This document shows, one piece after another, positions 13,164 through 26,595 of a stretch of 27,972 nucleotides of DNA. The number at the start of each line of letters is the position of its first letter. The stretch's first letter is position 1. The stretch comes from a virus. The notes under the pieces were generated by a model. That model did not search any database, was not told the origin of the DNA, and saw nothing but the letters and a program-made list of their open reading frames with translations. The stretch is taken from the IMG/VR virus record IMGVR_UViG_3300035698_012069, positions 1 through 27,972 of that record; one strand, written 5' to 3'. The position numbers were made by a program, and so were the translations under genes.

Positions 13164-13826
13164 TTATTCTCCTATTATGTGGGTGGCGATTCCAGATGCC
13201 TTTGCTTCTCTCGCAGTCATGTAAGTATCATATCCATGCCTCAATACCTTTTCGGCTGCAGGCTTTCCTATAATTGCCGCCAGTGCCGACATGAACTCCG
13301 CATCAAGTTTAGACATTTCTTCAGCCAATTTTTCTAGCTTCTCTTTAGACCCTCCTGTTATCAATATAGCCATAAATACCTTGTCTAGGTCTTTTTCGTT
13401 TCTACTTATCACATTATACATGTCGCGAGACGTAAGCCCTGCGTATGACGGGAAGTGAAACATTATGATCGCAGATTCGGTCATGATGCGACTTTCTCCG
13501 GCTAAAAACATCATAGCGCCGCAAGAGAAGGCATATCCCTCTATGAATGTATCTACAGGCACTTCTGAAGCCTCTAGCGCATGCATAATCTGATACAGGG
13601 CATCTACCTGACCCCCAGGTGAATTAATACTCAGTAGGGTGCGCTCTTTGACTTCTACTACTTTGTTGGTTTCACCTATAAGCTTTTCCAGTTTAGAAGC
13701 AGTGGCCGGTACGAAAACACCTGAAAAAGTAATGAAGTTTGTGGTGGCAGCCTGAGCGGCGCCTATGGCAATTAAGATGATTGCAGCCATTACAATTAAT
13801 TTACTTTTAAGTATTTGAATGTTCAT
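13164..13826 (-). CDS. Exported ClpP-like serine protease (220 aa)
   Basis: A longer frame begins upstream, but ATG 13826 is preferred: AAAGGAG lies at good distance and the first 26 residues are then a textbook signal peptide (MNIQILKSKL, hydrophobic core IVMAAIILIAIG, cleavage after AQA). The mature part has the ClpP/crotonase fold signatures: INSPGG (68-72) as oxyanion segment, Ser101 in GYAFSCGAMMFLAG, His124 in IIMFHFPS, and Asp200 in GYDTYMTAREAKASGIA. All three triad residues are present. A signal peptide is unusual for ClpP and places the enzyme in the periplasm or envelope, away from cytoplasmic ClpX. It has its own likely promoter (13851-13880). Possible roles are envelope protein cleavage during infection or exclusion; these are guesses. 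Confidence 0.8.
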   Translation of the reverse strand: MNIQILKSKLIVMAAIILIAIGAAQAATTNFITFSGVFVPATASKLEKLIGETNKVVEVKERTLLSINSPGGQVDALYQIMHALEASEVPVDTFIEGYAFSCGAMMFLAGESRIMTESAIIMFHFPSYAGLTSRDMYNVISRNEKDLDKVFMAILITGGSKEKLEKLAEEMSKLDAEFMSALAAIIGKPAAEKVLRHGYDTYMTAREAKASGIATHIIGE

Positions 13827-13850
13827 TGTTAAATCTCCTTTATACATACA

Positions 13851-13880
13851 AGAATAGCACCCGAAGGTGCCATTTGTCAA
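13851..13880 (-). promoter_or_regulatory. Leftward sigma70-type promoter for the exported ClpP-like gene
   Basis: Read leftward, TTGACA (13880-13875), an 18-base spacer and TATTCT (13856-13851) precede the gene. The -35 overlaps the stop codon of the preceding two-TM gene. A hairpin (next entry) occupies most of the spacer. Confidence 0.5.
13855..13872 (-). terminator. UUCG-tetraloop hairpin between two-TM gene and exported protease gene
   Basis: Leftward sequence TGGCACC-TTCG-GGTGCTA forms a stem of seven pairs (one G-U) with a stable UUCG loop, followed by TTCTTGT. The tail is weak for a terminator. Because the hairpin lies in the promoter spacer it might instead be an operator-like palindrome or an mRNA 5' stabiliser. 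Confidence 0.4.
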
Positions 13881-14059
13881 GCATTAATCCACGCAGCTAC
13901 GACTAAGACGAATCCTGTTGCGGATGTAAAGAATGAGAGCAGGAGAAAAATATTGTCTAGTTCATGTTTTTTGTTATAACACGCTAATACTGCAATTAGG
14001 AGCGCGGAAGAAGCCCCTAGGGCCAGTATAGACATTAGTATATGTAATAAAATTAGCAT
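13877..14059 (-). CDS. Small membrane protein, two TM segments (60 aa)
   Basis: AGGAG upstream of ATG 14059. Two hydrophobic helices (LHILMSILALGASSALLIAVL and IFLLLSFFTSATGFVLVVAAW) flank a short charged loop (YNKKHELDN). Function unknown; the start adjoins the stop of the diphosphohydrolase-like gene. Confidence 0.6.
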   Translation of the reverse strand: MLILLHILMSILALGASSALLIAVLACYNKKHELDNIFLLLSFFTSATGFVLVVAAWINA

Positions 14060-14413
14060 TTAGTTTCTCCTACTGTCTTTATATTCTTTTTTAACTATTC
14101 GCTGAGTTTCCCGAAGACTCAGATTGTGAACCTCCATATTTCGATAAAGTATCTCTATAGCCATCATGAGGCTAGTAGCGCCGTGTGCCAAATGCATTTC
14201 TGAAGATTCCTCGTCTAATAGTTCCCCTTTCTGGTGTTTTAGAAGGTGCCTGCGGGCCGCCTCTACTAAAGCATCGACAGATACTTCTGTGACATAGCTA
14301 TCGGGATTTCCCGGATACTTCTTATTTCCAAATTCTCGTACCCGCGCTACGGCCTCTAATCCACAATTTGGTACCAGATTTAATCTTAGCTTTCCTTTTG
14401 TGTCTTTAATCAT
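14060..14413 (-). CDS. dATP/dGTP diphosphohydrolase-like protein (DUF5664 family, 117 aa)
   Basis: AAAAGGAAC precedes ATG 14413. The family pattern is clear: KLRLNLVP near the N-terminus, EAVARVREFGNKKYPG, then the helical segment EAARRHLLKHQKGE (51-64), DEES, and HLAHGATSLMMAIEIL (74-89). These acidic and His residues are the metal-binding face of MazG-like all-alpha NTP pyrophosphohydrolases. The likely role is hydrolysis of dNTPs to dNMP and pyrophosphate, tuning nucleotide pools next to the replication genes. Related proteins act in phages that replace adenine, but no PurZ-like gene is visible here. A 13-codon frame just upstream (14452-14411) is coupled by TAATG/ATGA overlaps and may be only a leader. 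Confidence 0.65.
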   Translation of the reverse strand: MIKDTKGKLRLNLVPNCGLEAVARVREFGNKKYPGNPDSYVTEVSVDALVEAARRHLLKHQKGELLDEESSEMHLAHGATSLMMAIEILYRNMEVHNLSLRETQRIVKKEYKDSRRN

Positions 14414-14450
14414 TTTATGTTCCTTTTTATATCTTCCATTTCTCTGTCCA

Positions 14451-14777
14451 TTATAGTGTGCCTAATAGGTAATTAGCTGCTAAGGCAACTAGTCCTATGC
14501 CTACAATTATACCTAAAAGAGTCTTCCAGTTCCTCTTTAGCATTCTAAAGAACTTCATTGTATATGAATTGTCCCATTCCTGTTTAATCATGATATCCCT
14601 TACCTCCGATGTGTCTAGGTAGTCGTGTATTGCCTTAACAATATCCTCCAATACTAGACGGGTTTTTATTATTTTGGCTTTAGATGAGTCAACATGCCCT
14701 AAGATTATTATGGCCTTGTTCCCCTTAACCCTTAAGCTAATATCCAAACGGGGGTTTTTTCTACTATATAACTGCAT
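14451..14777 (-). CDS. Membrane-anchored hypothetical protein (108 aa)
   Basis: The ATG at 14777 is chosen over upstream TTG/GTG codons (14789, 14786); it overlaps the end of the ClpP-like gene by 14 bases. About 80 soluble residues (beta-rich start LDISLRVKGNKAIIILGHVD) are followed by a C-terminal membrane helix (LLGIIVGIGLVALAANYLLG). This is a tail-anchored arrangement with the bulk of the protein probably in the cytoplasm. Direct overlap with a cytoplasmic ClpP-like gene hints at a related job, for example membrane tethering, but nothing in the sequence proves it. Confidence 0.55.
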   Translation of the reverse strand: MQLYSRKNPRLDISLRVKGNKAIIILGHVDSSKAKIIKTRLVLEDIVKAIHDYLDTSEVRDIMIKQEWDNSYTMKFFRMLKRNWKTLLGIIVGIGLVALAANYLLGTL

Positions 14778-15324
14778 CTGCCGCACCAAATTTAACTACT
14801 GCATCGCCTTCTAACCATACATCTTTCTCGAACAACTTAAGAACCTCTTTCAAAGTCTTACCTGTGGCCTTTGCAATCAATGTGTGCAGTTTCAAGTTCA
14901 AGTGTTTTGTGTGTTCGAAACGAACCTCCATATCGGAAACTCGGCCAGAAGCGCCGGCACTTACTTCGTGAAACATCACTTGTGCGTTAGGCATTACTTT
15001 TCGCAGCCCCTTCTTTCCACCGCAAGTCAGCATAAATGCTCCCATACTTGCAGCCATTCCTACAGCCACTGTAGCCACGTCACGCTTCATATGTTTAATT
15101 GTGTCATAAATGGCCAAGCCGCTCACTACACACCCTCCAGGACTGTTAATATAGATCTGTACGGGCTCTTTAGTGCCGAGAGTATCTAAATATAGCAGTT
15201 GTTGGATAATTACGGCCGCCATATGTGGGTTAAAGTCTGTATCCAGCATAATGATGCCGGATTCGAGCAGGTTGGAGCGTAAGTCAATGTTCTTACCGCC
15301 CTTAATAATTAATGGTTCCCTCAT
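14764..15324 (-). CDS. ClpP-like serine protease, cytoplasmic (186 aa)
   Basis: AGAGGAG upstream of ATG 15324. A compact, near-canonical ClpP: YINSPGG (58-64), Ser93 in VGMAASMGAF, His119 in PNAQVMFHEVSAGASG, and Asp168 in EKDVWLEGDAVVKFGAADAV. It also has the N-terminal segment typical of ClpP (DLRSNLLESGIIMLDTDF). Length is slightly below bacterial ClpP (about 190-205) and there is no propeptide. ClpP forms a two-ring barrel that degrades proteins fed by ClpX or ClpA. The phage has its own ClpX-like gene at 23267. No capsid gene is near, so it does not look like a prohead protease. Lies in the replication operon beside a DEDD exonuclease. Confidence 0.88.
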   Translation of the reverse strand: MREPLIIKGGKNIDLRSNLLESGIIMLDTDFNPHMAAVIIQQLLYLDTLGTKEPVQIYINSPGGCVVSGLAIYDTIKHMKRDVATVAVGMAASMGAFMLTCGGKKGLRKVMPNAQVMFHEVSAGASGRVSDMEVRFEHTKHLNLKLHTLIAKATGKTLKEVLKLFEKDVWLEGDAVVKFGAADAVI

Positions 15325-22083: not shown

Positions 22084-22130
22084 TTCCCATGAAAAACTGT
22101 AATAAATGCTTGCTTTCCGTGAAAAACTGT
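22084..22130. repeat. Direct repeats overlapping the proximal rightward promoter
   Basis: TTCCCATGAAAAACTGT (22084-22100) and TTTCCGTGAAAAACTGT (22114-22130) differ at two of 17 bases and are spaced 30 bases apart, about three helical turns. The second copy fills the spacer between -35 and -10 of the promoter at 22110-22138, so a bound protein would block or modulate RNA polymerase. Confidence 0.7.
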
Positions 22131-22166: not shown

Positions 22167-22508
22167 ATGAAGATATACAATAAGATTAAAAAGGCCGTAA
22201 AGGACATGGTTACGTTCACTCCTGAAGTGGGCGGGGCATATAATTTCGTGTATAGGTACGGGATTGTTACATCGGGACCTAGAGAAGGGCGCGTATTAGC
22301 GTTTTTCGATGCGGACAGTGAGGAATTATTAGAGAGGTATATTGCAATATTAGATGCGAAATTCCATCTCTACACGGATACTCTGGCGGACAGAGAGTAT
22401 GTCGAGGATGAGGATTGCTGGTATTGCACCTACGCAGTTCTCTACCCTTTCGATACGGAAAATATGAGCGGGAAATTTGATGGGCAGAACGCCCGCCCGC
22501 TATTTTAG
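22167..22508 (+). CDS. Hypothetical early protein (113 aa)
   Basis: AAAGGGAT before ATG 22167; first gene of the rightward early block. A basic N-terminal helix (MKIYNKIKKAVKDMV) precedes a mixed, acidic body with an EYVEDEDCWYCTYAVLYPF stretch. No domain recognised. Early position makes a host-takeover role plausible but unproven. Confidence 0.6.
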   Translation: MKIYNKIKKAVKDMVTFTPEVGGAYNFVYRYGIVTSGPREGRVLAFFDADSEELLERYIAILDAKFHLYTDTLADREYVEDEDCWYCTYAVLYPFDTENMSGKFDGQNARPLF

Positions 22509-22518
22509 GAGGTAAATT

Positions 22519-22650
22519 ATGAATGAAGAGGATTTAGAAATAATACGCAGGCTCATTGAAGATATGGAGTTAGATGTATCTGTGGCGGACTTCGTTGCAG
22601 GTATTGAGAAGGCTAATCGCGAAGAGGTGGAGGAGTTATATCATGAGTAA
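22519..22650 (+). CDS. Acidic miniprotein overlapping the ClpP-like gene (43 aa)
   Basis: One of the best ribosome binding sites in the window, TAGGAGG, lies eight bases before ATG 22519. MNEEDLEIIRRLIEDMELDV then SVADFVAGIEKANREEVEEL: strongly acidic and helical. Its last eight bases overlap the start of the ClpP-like gene (ATGAGTAA), so the two are translationally coupled. Placement at the head of the Clp genes makes it a candidate adaptor or regulator; that is inference. Confidence 0.65.
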   Translation: MNEEDLEIIRRLIEDMELDVSVADFVAGIEKANREEVEELYHE

Positions 22651-23263
22651 GATGGGATTTGGACTCAGCGACATGCTGAAAGGAACGAGTCTTTATAAAG
22701 TTGGGCATAACACGATGTTACTACGGGGTGATGTTGGGCGTACAGACCTAATGCATCTGAAGAATTGGATTATGACGCTAAAGATTGATGCTGTGCAGGA
22801 TGCGTGCTTAATCATTGACAGTGCAGGGGGCGCTACAGATCCTTCTATTATTGCTGAGATGGTGCAAATACCAATTCATTGTCACGTCGCCGGTAAGGCG
22901 GAATCATTTGCCGCACTACTTTTGTTGGCTGGTTCCAGTAAGACGTTATCGCCGGGAGCGCATATTATGTTACATGCGGCACGTTGGGGCGACACGAAAG
23001 ATTCTAACCTTGTAGCGCTTGATGAGAGTGTTCTATTTAGGCACCGGTATAAAATGGCTTCATTTGTAAGCACAGTTGCGCCAGGCAGGGCTAAAAAGCT
23101 CATGGTAGATGCTGTTACGGGGAGCGAAGATGTTTTCTTCTTAGATAAGTACTTAATGGAGGTCGGCGTTGTCGATGGAGTAGTGGACTACACGGGGGAA
23201 GCGCTCGGGCTTGTAGAAGAGACGGCTAAGTGGTATAATGAAACATATGGACAAGAGGAGTAG
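22643..23263 (+). CDS. Divergent ClpP-like serine protease, paired with ClpX (206 aa)
   Basis: ATG 22643 (MSKMGFGLSDM) follows GGAGGAG and is preferred over an in-frame start 69 bases upstream. Clp-protease fold landmarks: LIIDSAGGATD (57-66) as oxyanion segment, Ser88 in GKAESFAALLLLAGS, His111 in GAHIMLHAARWG, and Asp163 in SEDVFFLDKYLMEVGVVDGV. The triad is intact though the surrounding sequence is far from canonical ClpP (AESFA instead of AASMG; shortened link between oxyanion segment and active Ser). It is followed three bases later by the ClpX-like gene, so the two probably form a protease-unfoldase pair in the cytoplasm. It could also have become a non-proteolytic ClpR-like partner, but the catalytic residues are present. 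Confidence 0.8.
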   Translation: MSKMGFGLSDMLKGTSLYKVGHNTMLLRGDVGRTDLMHLKNWIMTLKIDAVQDACLIIDSAGGATDPSIIAEMVQIPIHCHVAGKAESFAALLLLAGSSKTLSPGAHIMLHAARWGDTKDSNLVALDESVLFRHRYKMASFVSTVAPGRAKKLMVDAVTGSEDVFFLDKYLMEVGVVDGVVDYTGEALGLVEETAKWYNETYGQEE

Positions 23264-23266
23264 AAC

Positions 23267-24307
23267 ATGAGAGACGATTACACAGTAAGAATTAACGGAC
23301 GATTATTTCCTCCGGCAGGTAAAATGTACGAGGGACCGTTTGATCCTAATTTTGAAGCCCAAAAGGAAGTAGAGGAAGTTGCAATTCCGACACCCTTGGA
23401 GATTCGCGAATATTTGGATCGACACGTTATTGGTCAGGATTACGCCAAAAAGGCTATTTCTACTTTAATGGTCAATCATATGCATCGCGCAAAGTACAAT
23501 GCAACAGTGAAAAAGTCCACGGAAAAGCTAAGCAAATCGAATATTTTGCTAATCGGCGATTCGGGAGTAGGTAAAACACTCACAGTTAAGGTCGCGGCTG
23601 AATTTGTAGATGTGCCTATGGTAATCGAGGATGCCACTAAACTAACGCAAGAAGGCTATGTAGGCGATTCCGTTGAGACAATTTTGACGTCGCTATATGT
23701 CGCAGCAGATAGTGATATCGATAAAACTCAAAGAGGTATTATTTTTCTCGATGAGTTCGACAAATTAGCTACATCCTCGCAAGACCGGGGAAATGTCAGT
23801 ACGGGAGCCGTACAACAGTCGCTTTTAAAGATGGTTGAAGGCGGTATATTCCATATATCTAAGACACATTCTGAAAAGCAAGGTGCAGCGAAGATAGAAA
23901 TTGACACAACAAGTATCACTTTTGTATTTGCCGGCGCTTTTGGAGGTCTAGCCTCGAAAGTTAAAGGTAAAGTGAGCCTCGGTTTCAACGAATCCACTCG
24001 AGAGAGGGCAATTTTAGAGAGTGATATTATCGATTATGGAATTATGCCGGAAATCTTAGGTAGAATTGGTACATATATCACGCTGCACGAGCTAAGCGAC
24101 AAGGATATGCTCAAAGTTCTAACTGAAGTTGAGAATTCCATCGTGAAACAGTACCAGAAACTGTTTGAAGTACGCGGAATTAAGTGGAAACTGAAGAAAA
24201 AAGACTACAATGCCATCATTAAGAAGGTAAAAGAGACCAAGTTAGGTGCTCGCGGCCTGCAAAGGCAGATTGAACAGCTACTGCTTGAAGATATGTATGC
24301 GGTGTAG
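23267..24307 (+). CDS. ClpX-like AAA+ protein unfoldase lacking the zinc-binding domain (346 aa)
   Basis: GAGGAG precedes ATG 23267. A clear ClpX core: PTPLEIREYLDRHVIGQDYAKK with Walker A GDSGVGKT (97-104), pore loop GYVG (130-133), Walker B IIFLDE (158-163), arginine-finger box YGIMPEILGR (257-266) and sensor 2 GARGLQRQ (327-334). L238-G239-F240 sits where ClpX carries its IGF ClpP-docking loop, between FAGAFGGL and the YGIMPEILGR box. The N-terminal ~40 residues contain no C4 zinc motif, so the adaptor-binding domain of host ClpX is absent; length (about 420 usual) agrees. It would unfold substrates into the neighbouring ClpP-like barrel or engage host ClpP. Downstream genes overlap it. 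Confidence 0.92.
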   Translation: MRDDYTVRINGRLFPPAGKMYEGPFDPNFEAQKEVEEVAIPTPLEIREYLDRHVIGQDYAKKAISTLMVNHMHRAKYNATVKKSTEKLSKSNILLIGDSGVGKTLTVKVAAEFVDVPMVIEDATKLTQEGYVGDSVETILTSLYVAADSDIDKTQRGIIFLDEFDKLATSSQDRGNVSTGAVQQSLLKMVEGGIFHISKTHSEKQGAAKIEIDTTSITFVFAGAFGGLASKVKGKVSLGFNESTRERAILESDIIDYGIMPEILGRIGTYITLHELSDKDMLKVLTEVENSIVKQYQKLFEVRGIKWKLKKKDYNAIIKKVKETKLGARGLQRQIEQLLLEDMYAV

Positions 24308-24557
24308 CAGGACAATTATAGAGGTAATAGGCATTCGGGAGCCTATTCCTTGCAGTTTAGATGTGCGGCCAATTGAAATACAGAGGCCTAAATACTTTAC
24401 TAAACCAAATAAGAAGAGGTTTATTGCGGTCCAGACGGCCGGACGAGATTTGGATATAGTTAAGTTGGAAATATTTAATACGGCAATTCGCCTATACAAA
24501 GTAGAAACAATTTCTTACCTTTTATACGGTGAGACAATGGTAGGAGTAATAAAATGA
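24297..24557 (+). CDS. Hypothetical protein coupled to the ClpX-like gene (86 aa)
   Basis: ATG 24297 overlaps the ClpX-like gene by 11 bases. MRCSRTIIEVIGIREPIPCS and RPKYFTKPNKKRFIAVQTAG indicate a small basic mixed alpha/beta protein. No family recognised. Tight coupling to the ClpX-like gene makes a substrate adaptor or inhibitor possible. It ends with an ATGA overlap to the next cistron. Confidence 0.55.
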   Translation: MRCSRTIIEVIGIREPIPCSLDVRPIEIQRPKYFTKPNKKRFIAVQTAGRDLDIVKLEIFNTAIRLYKVETISYLLYGETMVGVIK

Positions 24558-24856
24558 ATATAGAATTAATGTTCCATACATGGGGAATCAGCCACGACAT
24601 ACCTACTATGATGCATTTAACGCACCACCATGTAGGAAATAAAGAGGCTATCATGCGTCTTAATGCCATTTTGGTCGGATCATACCGCTCCGATGAAATA
24701 CCGGCAGTATTGCGGCAGTATAGCCCAGTATTAAACGGCCTACTAAGAAAACAATACGCAGATAAAGAAGTCGGCGGCTGTATTCTTGACTATTTATGTC
24801 AAGTAGATAATGGCGCAGAACACATAATACAGATAATAGAAGGCGAGTCCCTATAA
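24554..24856 (+). CDS. Hypothetical protein, end of the Clp operon (100 aa)
   Basis: GGTAGGAG before ATG 24554. His-rich segment near the N-terminus (PTMMHLTHHHVGNKEA), then a helical body (YRSDEIPAVLRQYSPVLN) and an acidic C-terminus. The ORF's 3' end runs into the terminator stem. No family recognised. Confidence 0.6.
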   Translation: MNIELMFHTWGISHDIPTMMHLTHHHVGNKEAIMRLNAILVGSYRSDEIPAVLRQYSPVLNGLLRKQYADKEVGGCILDYLCQVDNGAEHIIQIIEGESL

Positions 24857-24871
24857 GGGGCCGCCTTTTTT
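24841..24871 (+). terminator. Intrinsic terminator of the Clp operon
   Basis: AGGCG pairs with CGCCT (24841-24845 / 24862-24866) and inside it CCCT with AGGG around an ATA loop, followed by TTTTT. It overlaps the last codons of the 100-residue gene. Confidence 0.85.
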
Positions 24872-24873
24872 CC

Positions 24874-25974: not shown

Positions 25975-26595
25975 ATGTATAAAATAGAAAAAATAACTGA
26001 TCTAGAGGCTGTCAAACAAAACGGAAATGCACTTGAATATGTAAAAGAACAAACACATGAACTTTGTATTGAAGCTGTTAGACAAAATGGATATGCCTTT
26101 AGACATGTAAAAGAACAAACACCTGAACTTTGTCTTGAAGCTGTTAAGCAAGAAGGAAATGCCCTTAGATATGTAAAAGAACAAACACCTAAATTATGTT
26201 TTGAAACTGTTAAACAAAATGGATATGCCCTTAGATATGTAAAAGAACAAACACATGAACTTTGTCTTGAAGCCGTCAAACAAAACGGAAATGCACTTGA
26301 ATATGTAAAAGAACAAACACCTGAACTCTGTCTTGAAGCCGTCAAACAAAATGGATATGCCCTTATATATGTAAAAGTACAAACACCTGAAATATGTCTT
26401 GAAGCTGTTAAGCAAGAAGGAAATGCCCTTAGATATGTGAGAGAACAAACACCTGAACTTTGTCTTGAAGCTGTTAAACAAAACAGAAATGCCCTTAGAC
26501 ATGTAAAAAACACACTACAGAGGATGCTAATTTTCTTAAAACAGCTAAGAAAACATTTTGAAGATGCTTTATTTTTAATAAAACCAGTAAAATGA
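25975..26595 (+). CDS. DUF4116-type tandem repeat protein (206 aa)
   Basis: GGAG before ATG 25975. The protein is almost entirely eight copies of a 22-residue unit, consensus EQTPELCLEAVKQNGNAL followed by RYVK; the first is partial and the last begins at about residue 157. This matches the DUF4116 repeat known from bacterial and large-virus proteins, thought to form a helical solenoid for protein binding. After the last repeat the zero frame continues NTLQRMLIFLKQLRKHF for 28 residues, which is unlike the repeats. An A AAA AAC heptamer at the junction offers a -1 frame that ends 16 codons later. The gene is more A-rich than its neighbours, suggesting separate acquisition. Confidence 0.75.
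   Translation: MYKIEKITDLEAVKQNGNALEYVKEQTHELCIEAVRQNGYAFRHVKEQTPELCLEAVKQEGNALRYVKEQTPKLCFETVKQNGYALRYVKEQTHELCLEAVKQNGNALEYVKEQTPELCLEAVKQNGYALIYVKVQTPEICLEAVKQEGNALRYVREQTPELCLEAVKQNRNALRHVKNTLQRMLIFLKQLRKHFEDALFLIKPVK
26047..26508 (+). repeat. Seven 66-bp tandem repeats encoding DUF4116-type units
   Basis: Seven consecutive 66-base units, each starting GAACAAACAC or a close variant, code for the 22-residue repeats. Copies share long identical stretches, consistent with recent unequal duplication. All are in frame, so this is a coding repeat and not a CRISPR array. Confidence 0.85.

Follow-up and report, generated by a model that had tools for sequence, protein, structure and literature searches.

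A ClpX-type unfoldase gene beside a diverged ClpP-like peptidase gene in a phage fragment with T7-like genes

The phage fragment analyzed here carries a gene for a ClpX-type AAA+ unfoldase directly downstream of a gene for a ClpP-fold serine peptidase, ClpP3. We assign a probability of roughly 0.55 to the reading that the phage makes its own ATP-dependent ClpXP-like protease, with the diverged ClpP3 as the most likely chamber. The likeliest account of the pair is a dedicated ClpXP-like protease of the phage whose choice of substrates has changed.

Genome setting and operon layout

The window, meaning the whole stretch analyzed, corresponds to a linear virus record in IMG/VR, 27,972 bases long, with T7-like genes. 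Its plus strand encodes a tail protein (PHROG 376), large virion proteins, one of them resembling PHROG 684, and a collagen-like tail gene. The minus strand holds a replication block with a family A DNA polymerase, exonucleases, a T7-type endonuclease I, a gp2.5-like SSB and a lysozyme. A block of small genes on the plus strand follows, starting at 22167. Since terminase and capsid genes are absent, the window is a fragment. Pattern scans of IMG/VR with the DNA polymerase, the tail protein and the internal virion protein found no phage relatives, and the nearest DNA polymerase among phage records is 25% identical at best; this is a phage without a findable close relative. The window also encodes a 206-aa protein with seven DUF4116 repeats (25975-26595; Pfam E 4.4e-58) and, on the minus strand at 14060-14413, a protein with a dATP/dGTP diphosphohydrolase N-terminal domain, possibly a nucleotide-pool or DNA-modification enzyme.

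The features of the small-gene block that concern us are as follows.

22084..22130, plus strand: direct repeat TTYCCRTGAAAAACTGT, two copies at 30-nt spacing, upstream of the operon only
22167..22508, plus strand: 113-aa ORF, first in the operon, no family
22519..22650, plus strand: 43-aa acidic ORF, overlapping the start of clpP3 by 8 nt; best PHROG match E 0.05, nothing above background
22643..23263, plus strand: ClpP-fold serine peptidase ClpP3, 206 aa (Pfam, AF2 model, Foldseek, triad)
22904-22906, 22973-22975 and 23129-23131, plus strand: ClpP3 catalytic codons for S88, H111 and D163
23267..24307, plus strand: ClpX-type AAA+ unfoldase, 346 aa (PDB, AF2 model, residue mapping, phage survey)
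24297..24557, plus strand: 86-aa basic ORF (pI 9.6), overlapping the end of clpX by 11 nt, no family
24554..24856, plus strand: 100-aa ORF, last in the operon, no family
24840..24872, plus strand: intrinsic terminator-like hairpin (-20.3 kcal/mol, then T6) that closes the operon

The six-gene operon thus ends in a strong terminator-like hairpin, and clpP3 and clpX are separated by a gap of 3 nt; both this spacing and the gene positions agree with the first-pass annotation. The direct repeat TTYCCRTGAAAAACTGT was found twice where 0.12 matches were expected by chance, and may be a regulatory site. Two other proposals about the operon fared less well. An early-type promoter had been invoked as driving the pair, but promoter-like matches are no commoner in the window than in shuffled sequence (15 vs 17.6). 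The acidic 43-residue protein described as translationally coupled does have an 8-nt overlap with clpP3 and a pI of 4.1, but it is unremarkable against the genome background: three further small ORFs in the window have a pI of 4.05, and 13 of the 41 pairs of same-strand neighbors overlap, with 26 of 41 lying within 10 nt. Because small acidic ORFs recur and close packing is the rule, this miniprotein carries little weight.

A pared ClpX and a diverged ClpP

The best PDB matches of the window ClpX were ClpX chains (E 3.5e-64). Its AlphaFold2 model (pLDDT 83.0) resembles the ClpX chains of ClpXP complexes (Foldseek E 5.5e-30), and its AAA+ core shares 37% identity with that of E. coli ClpX. The motor is complete: Walker A K103, Walker B D162/E163, the GYVG residue Y131, the arginine finger R266 and the sensor 2 residue R329 correspond to E. 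coli K125, D184/E185, Y153, R307 and R370, respectively. The docking loop L238-G239-F240 (23978-23986) aligns with E. coli I268-G269-F270 and has the form [ILMV]-G-F, in a region of low local model confidence (pLDDT <50 at 237-243). The earlier description of a ClpX-like ATPase retaining Walker A/B, GYVG, sensor 2 and LGF is therefore confirmed, as all of these map onto E. coli ClpX positions.

Three accessory parts are gone. The window ClpX has no Cys pairs and no zinc-binding domain, an N-terminal domain found in 83 of the 86 phage ClpX proteins in the aligned set, the window's included; the other two without it are encoded at the end of a contig or close to one. The RKH pore-entry loop is missing (R228>E, K229 kept, H230>Q), as it is in 30 of the 86, the window's among them, while 56 keep it. 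The C-terminal tail is also missing, and the other 85 of the 86 run at least 18 residues further. ClpX-like proteins without a zinc domain exist in some bacterial genomes, but all those compared retain the C-terminal extension. Judged by sequence, the window ClpX is a bare motor without these three parts. It scores below the NCBIfam ClpX equivalog cut-offs (301 vs 359 and 274 vs 371 bits), and in a tree it sits on a long end branch (2.06) with no reliable sister.

An identity as HslU was rejected (HslU equivalog 131 vs 362 bits). A ClpX tail supplied by the next ORF through a frameshift was likewise rejected, the composite scoring 18.4 bits against 21.0 without it and 340 of 500 shuffles doing as well. 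PADLOC returned generic AAA matches only, so that membership in a known defense system was discarded. The survey also turned up a phage ClpX split at Walker A by an apparent intein (L011:8624-10945; an insert of ~350 aa with an HN end before the SGKT motif). ClpX-like proteins from Bacilli/Tenericutes MAGs (L219-L227, L243), with a non-zinc N-terminal region of ~200 aa, LGF or IGF loops and no ClpP nearby, apparently form a distinct ClpX subfamily.

The ClpP3 reading frame opens mechanically at 22574. The plausible start is the ATG at 22643, which gives 206 aa and, with it, the residue numbering S88/H111/D163 under which the catalytic ClpP-like protein had first been described. That description holds. 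ClpP3 matches Pfam CLP_protease at 37.1 bits (E 3.8e-9, above the cut-off of 20.2), and its S88, H111 and D163 occupy the positions of S97, H122 and D171 in E. coli ClpP, a triad that does not vary among the 33 ClpP proteins aligned, divergent ones from phages included. Its AlphaFold2 single-chain model (pLDDT 79.7) matches ClpP crystal structures in the PDB (Foldseek E 1.7e-11; TM 0.62-0.68, normalized by query length). Ahead of the active serine, the helix is shorter by 4 residues, and the score against NCBIfam PRK00277, the model of true ClpP, is 25 bits vs a cut-off of 249. On these profile and alignment results we class ClpP3 as a member of the ClpP superfamily and not as an orthologue of housekeeping ClpP. 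Its PHROG matches include head maturation proteases, weakly. No relatives of ClpP3 were found by tblastn in phages and plasmids or by a pattern scan of IMG/VR and GTDB genomes.

Precedent in phages and bacteria

Phage ClpX and ClpP are not new. Searched by tblastn, the window ClpX found ClpX-like matches in 297 phage records, a good many of which come from jumbo phages. Not every clpP-clpX record labeled 'phage' is viral: an Acinetobacter tig-clpP-clpX contig (H12) is bacterial DNA, L072 probably is too, and neither was used as precedent. ClpP is also encoded by 20 of 50 ClpX-bearing viral contigs, and by 14 of the 17 that exceed 70 kb. Canonical clpP lies directly upstream of canonical clpX in the jumbo IMG/VR contigs L006 and L007 (207-224 kb). 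Most clpX genes of phages are solitary: no ClpP is encoded within ~6 kb of them. The earlier statement that ClpP homologues occur in phages mainly as prohead proteases or single accessory genes underrates how widespread phage ClpX and ClpP are and that they are sometimes adjacent. In jumbo phages, ClpX, ClpP and other Clp proteins have been reported, with roles guessed at in replication, assembly or host takeover (PMC6102473, PMC7824862, PMC11242549). In a literature search of partial coverage, none of the papers described a small podovirus-like phage with a clpP-clpX pair. As single Clp parts are common in giant phages, the pair described here is an unusual variant and not a new type of machine.

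Three comparisons place this variant. With bacterial ClpXP (E. coli) it shares the clpP-clpX gene order, the ClpX AAA+ core with Walker A/B, GYVG, arginine finger and sensor 2, the x-G-F loop, and the ClpP fold and triad. It differs from the bacterial system in the three parts missing from ClpX, in a diverged ClpP with a changed groove, and in its small phage operon without tig or lon. L006, L007 and phage ClpX proteins such as Atu_ph07 gp2 (PMC6102473) are likewise phage-encoded, and the first two also have clpP just upstream of clpX. Unlike the window ClpX, however, these ClpX proteins keep the zinc domain (those of L006 and L007 also RKH); the ClpP of L006 and L007 is canonical whereas ClpP3 is diverged, and these are jumbo genomes of 200-500 kb rather than a 28-kb fragment with T7-like genes. 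The clade of divergent phage ClpPs L127-L206 shares with ClpP3 the triad, an S-x-G-G motif (mostly non-proline), a WG that follows the region of the catalytic histidine and the presence of more than one ClpP per phage. ClpP3 nevertheless falls below threshold against the profile of this clade and has the shorter helix, and it adjoins clpX while the clade ClpPs are never within 4 kb of clpX. At 43 of 80 loci the divergent ClpP lies 0-2.5 kb upstream of a canonical ClpP, always on the same strand, with clpX elsewhere. This arrangement suggests that the ClpPs of large phages form mixed rings or act as a functional pair.

Possible partners and proposed mechanism

Whether ClpX works with ClpP3 turns on the groove that receives the docking loop. 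At the positions that form the IGF groove of E. coli ClpP in ClpXP structures, ClpP3 carries Y60>C, Y62>I, F82>M, I90>H, F112>T and L114>S, so the conserved hydrophobic groove for the IGF loop is not found in ClpP3. The LGF tripeptide noted at the ClpP-docking position does align with IGF, but the receiving groove in the neighboring ClpP3 is not conserved. Either the groove co-evolved with the LGF loop or ClpX docks elsewhere. With the groove remodeled, it is from gene order that we infer the ClpX-ClpP3 partnership, the order being that of bacteria and of L006 and L007. Two further ClpP-family proteins bear on the choice of partner.

13164..13838, minus strand: ClpP1, a ClpP/SDH-like protein with an apparent signal peptide (Pfam CLP_protease, 55 bits); the ORF is open from 13880, with a likely ATG start just inside 13838
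14764..15324, minus strand: ClpP2, a canonical-type ClpP of 186 aa within the replication block (Pfam 170 bits, E 7.5e-50)

One 28-kb fragment thus encodes three ClpP-family proteins, two of them within a stretch of ~2 kb (13164-15324, minus strand). The first-pass annotation described a single ClpP-ClpX pair; the pair is there, but ClpP1 and ClpP2 were overlooked. Its proposal of a dedicated proteolysis machine is still the best reading of a real pair, with the qualification that the pairing comes from gene order and that the canonical ClpP2 could be an alternative partner of ClpX. ClpP2 scores 175 bits against NCBIfam PRK00277, under the cut-off of 249. Next after its gene, and overlapping it, comes a small ORF (minus strand) that likely encodes a membrane segment.

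It is possible, if rather unlikely, that the window ClpX serves ClpP2 or the host ClpP. ClpP3 would then be a peptidase in its own right, or would join mixed rings as a minority or regulatory subunit (cf. ClpP1P2). ClpX has kept its LGF motif while the ClpP3 groove has degraded, a canonical ClpP2 is at hand, the divergent ClpPs of large phages stand upstream of canonical ones with clpX elsewhere, and most phage clpX genes have no adjacent clpP. Yet clpP3 and clpX belong to one operon, whereas ClpP2 is encoded ~8 kb away on the opposite strand and has a partly altered groove of its own (Y60>Q, F82>H, F112>K).

The frequency of phage loci with ClpX and no ClpP would also suit a ClpX that acts as a solo unfoldase or remodeler, for example of replication or virion complexes, while ClpP3 independently processes phage proteins in the manner of the head maturation proteases that it weakly matches; in a review of jumbo phages, phage ClpX is given a proposed role in assembly or as a translocase (PMC7824862). 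We consider this improbable, as ClpX retains the LGF loop, which serves no purpose other than ClpP docking, and 14 kb separate the operon from the genes for tail and virion proteins, which lie beyond the replication block. Head genes, from which the pair had been described as distant, are not in the fragment. Decay or chimerism, in which the pair would be degenerating, functionless cargo or the contig would join unrelated DNA, would fit the very long branch, the absence of close relatives and the loss of domains at both ends. It is nonetheless very improbable: all catalytic and motor residues are kept, the frames are open, the ribosome sites are good, and the GC and GC3 of the pair resemble those of other phage genes.

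The analysis shows the families of both proteins, their catalytic and motor residues, the layout of the operon and the domains that are missing; for the ClpXP-like protease that we favor, we infer ring assembly, docking, activity and substrates as follows. A bare-motor ClpX hexamer would grip its substrate by the GYVG loop, unfold it with ATP and thread it into a ClpP-type chamber, probably ClpP3 docked via the LGF loop to its remodeled groove. The client set would be narrow and chosen by the phage, perhaps delivered by an operon neighbor; with the zinc domain and the ssrA-reading RKH loop lost, host SspB- and ssrA-delivered clients should be ignored. A more speculative version, which we hold only tentatively, is a minimal orthogonal ClpXP: the ClpX without zinc domain or tail and the remodeled-groove ClpP would have co-evolved as an exclusive lock and key, shielded from the ClpX and ClpP of the host. 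An adaptor encoded in the operon would direct the pair to a few targets of the phage's choosing, and the three ClpP paralogues of this small phage would serve different compartments or stages.

Should it prove active, the pair would form a ClpXP-like machine of very small size. It would then show, as a test provided by nature, which features a ClpX requires (motor, pore loop and docking loop) and which are dispensable (zinc domain, RKH loop and tail). If orthogonal, it would be a useful tool for targeted degradation. Trapped substrates would reveal the targets of phage-encoded Clp proteases, a question that genome papers have so far met with conjecture (PMC6102473, PMC7824862).
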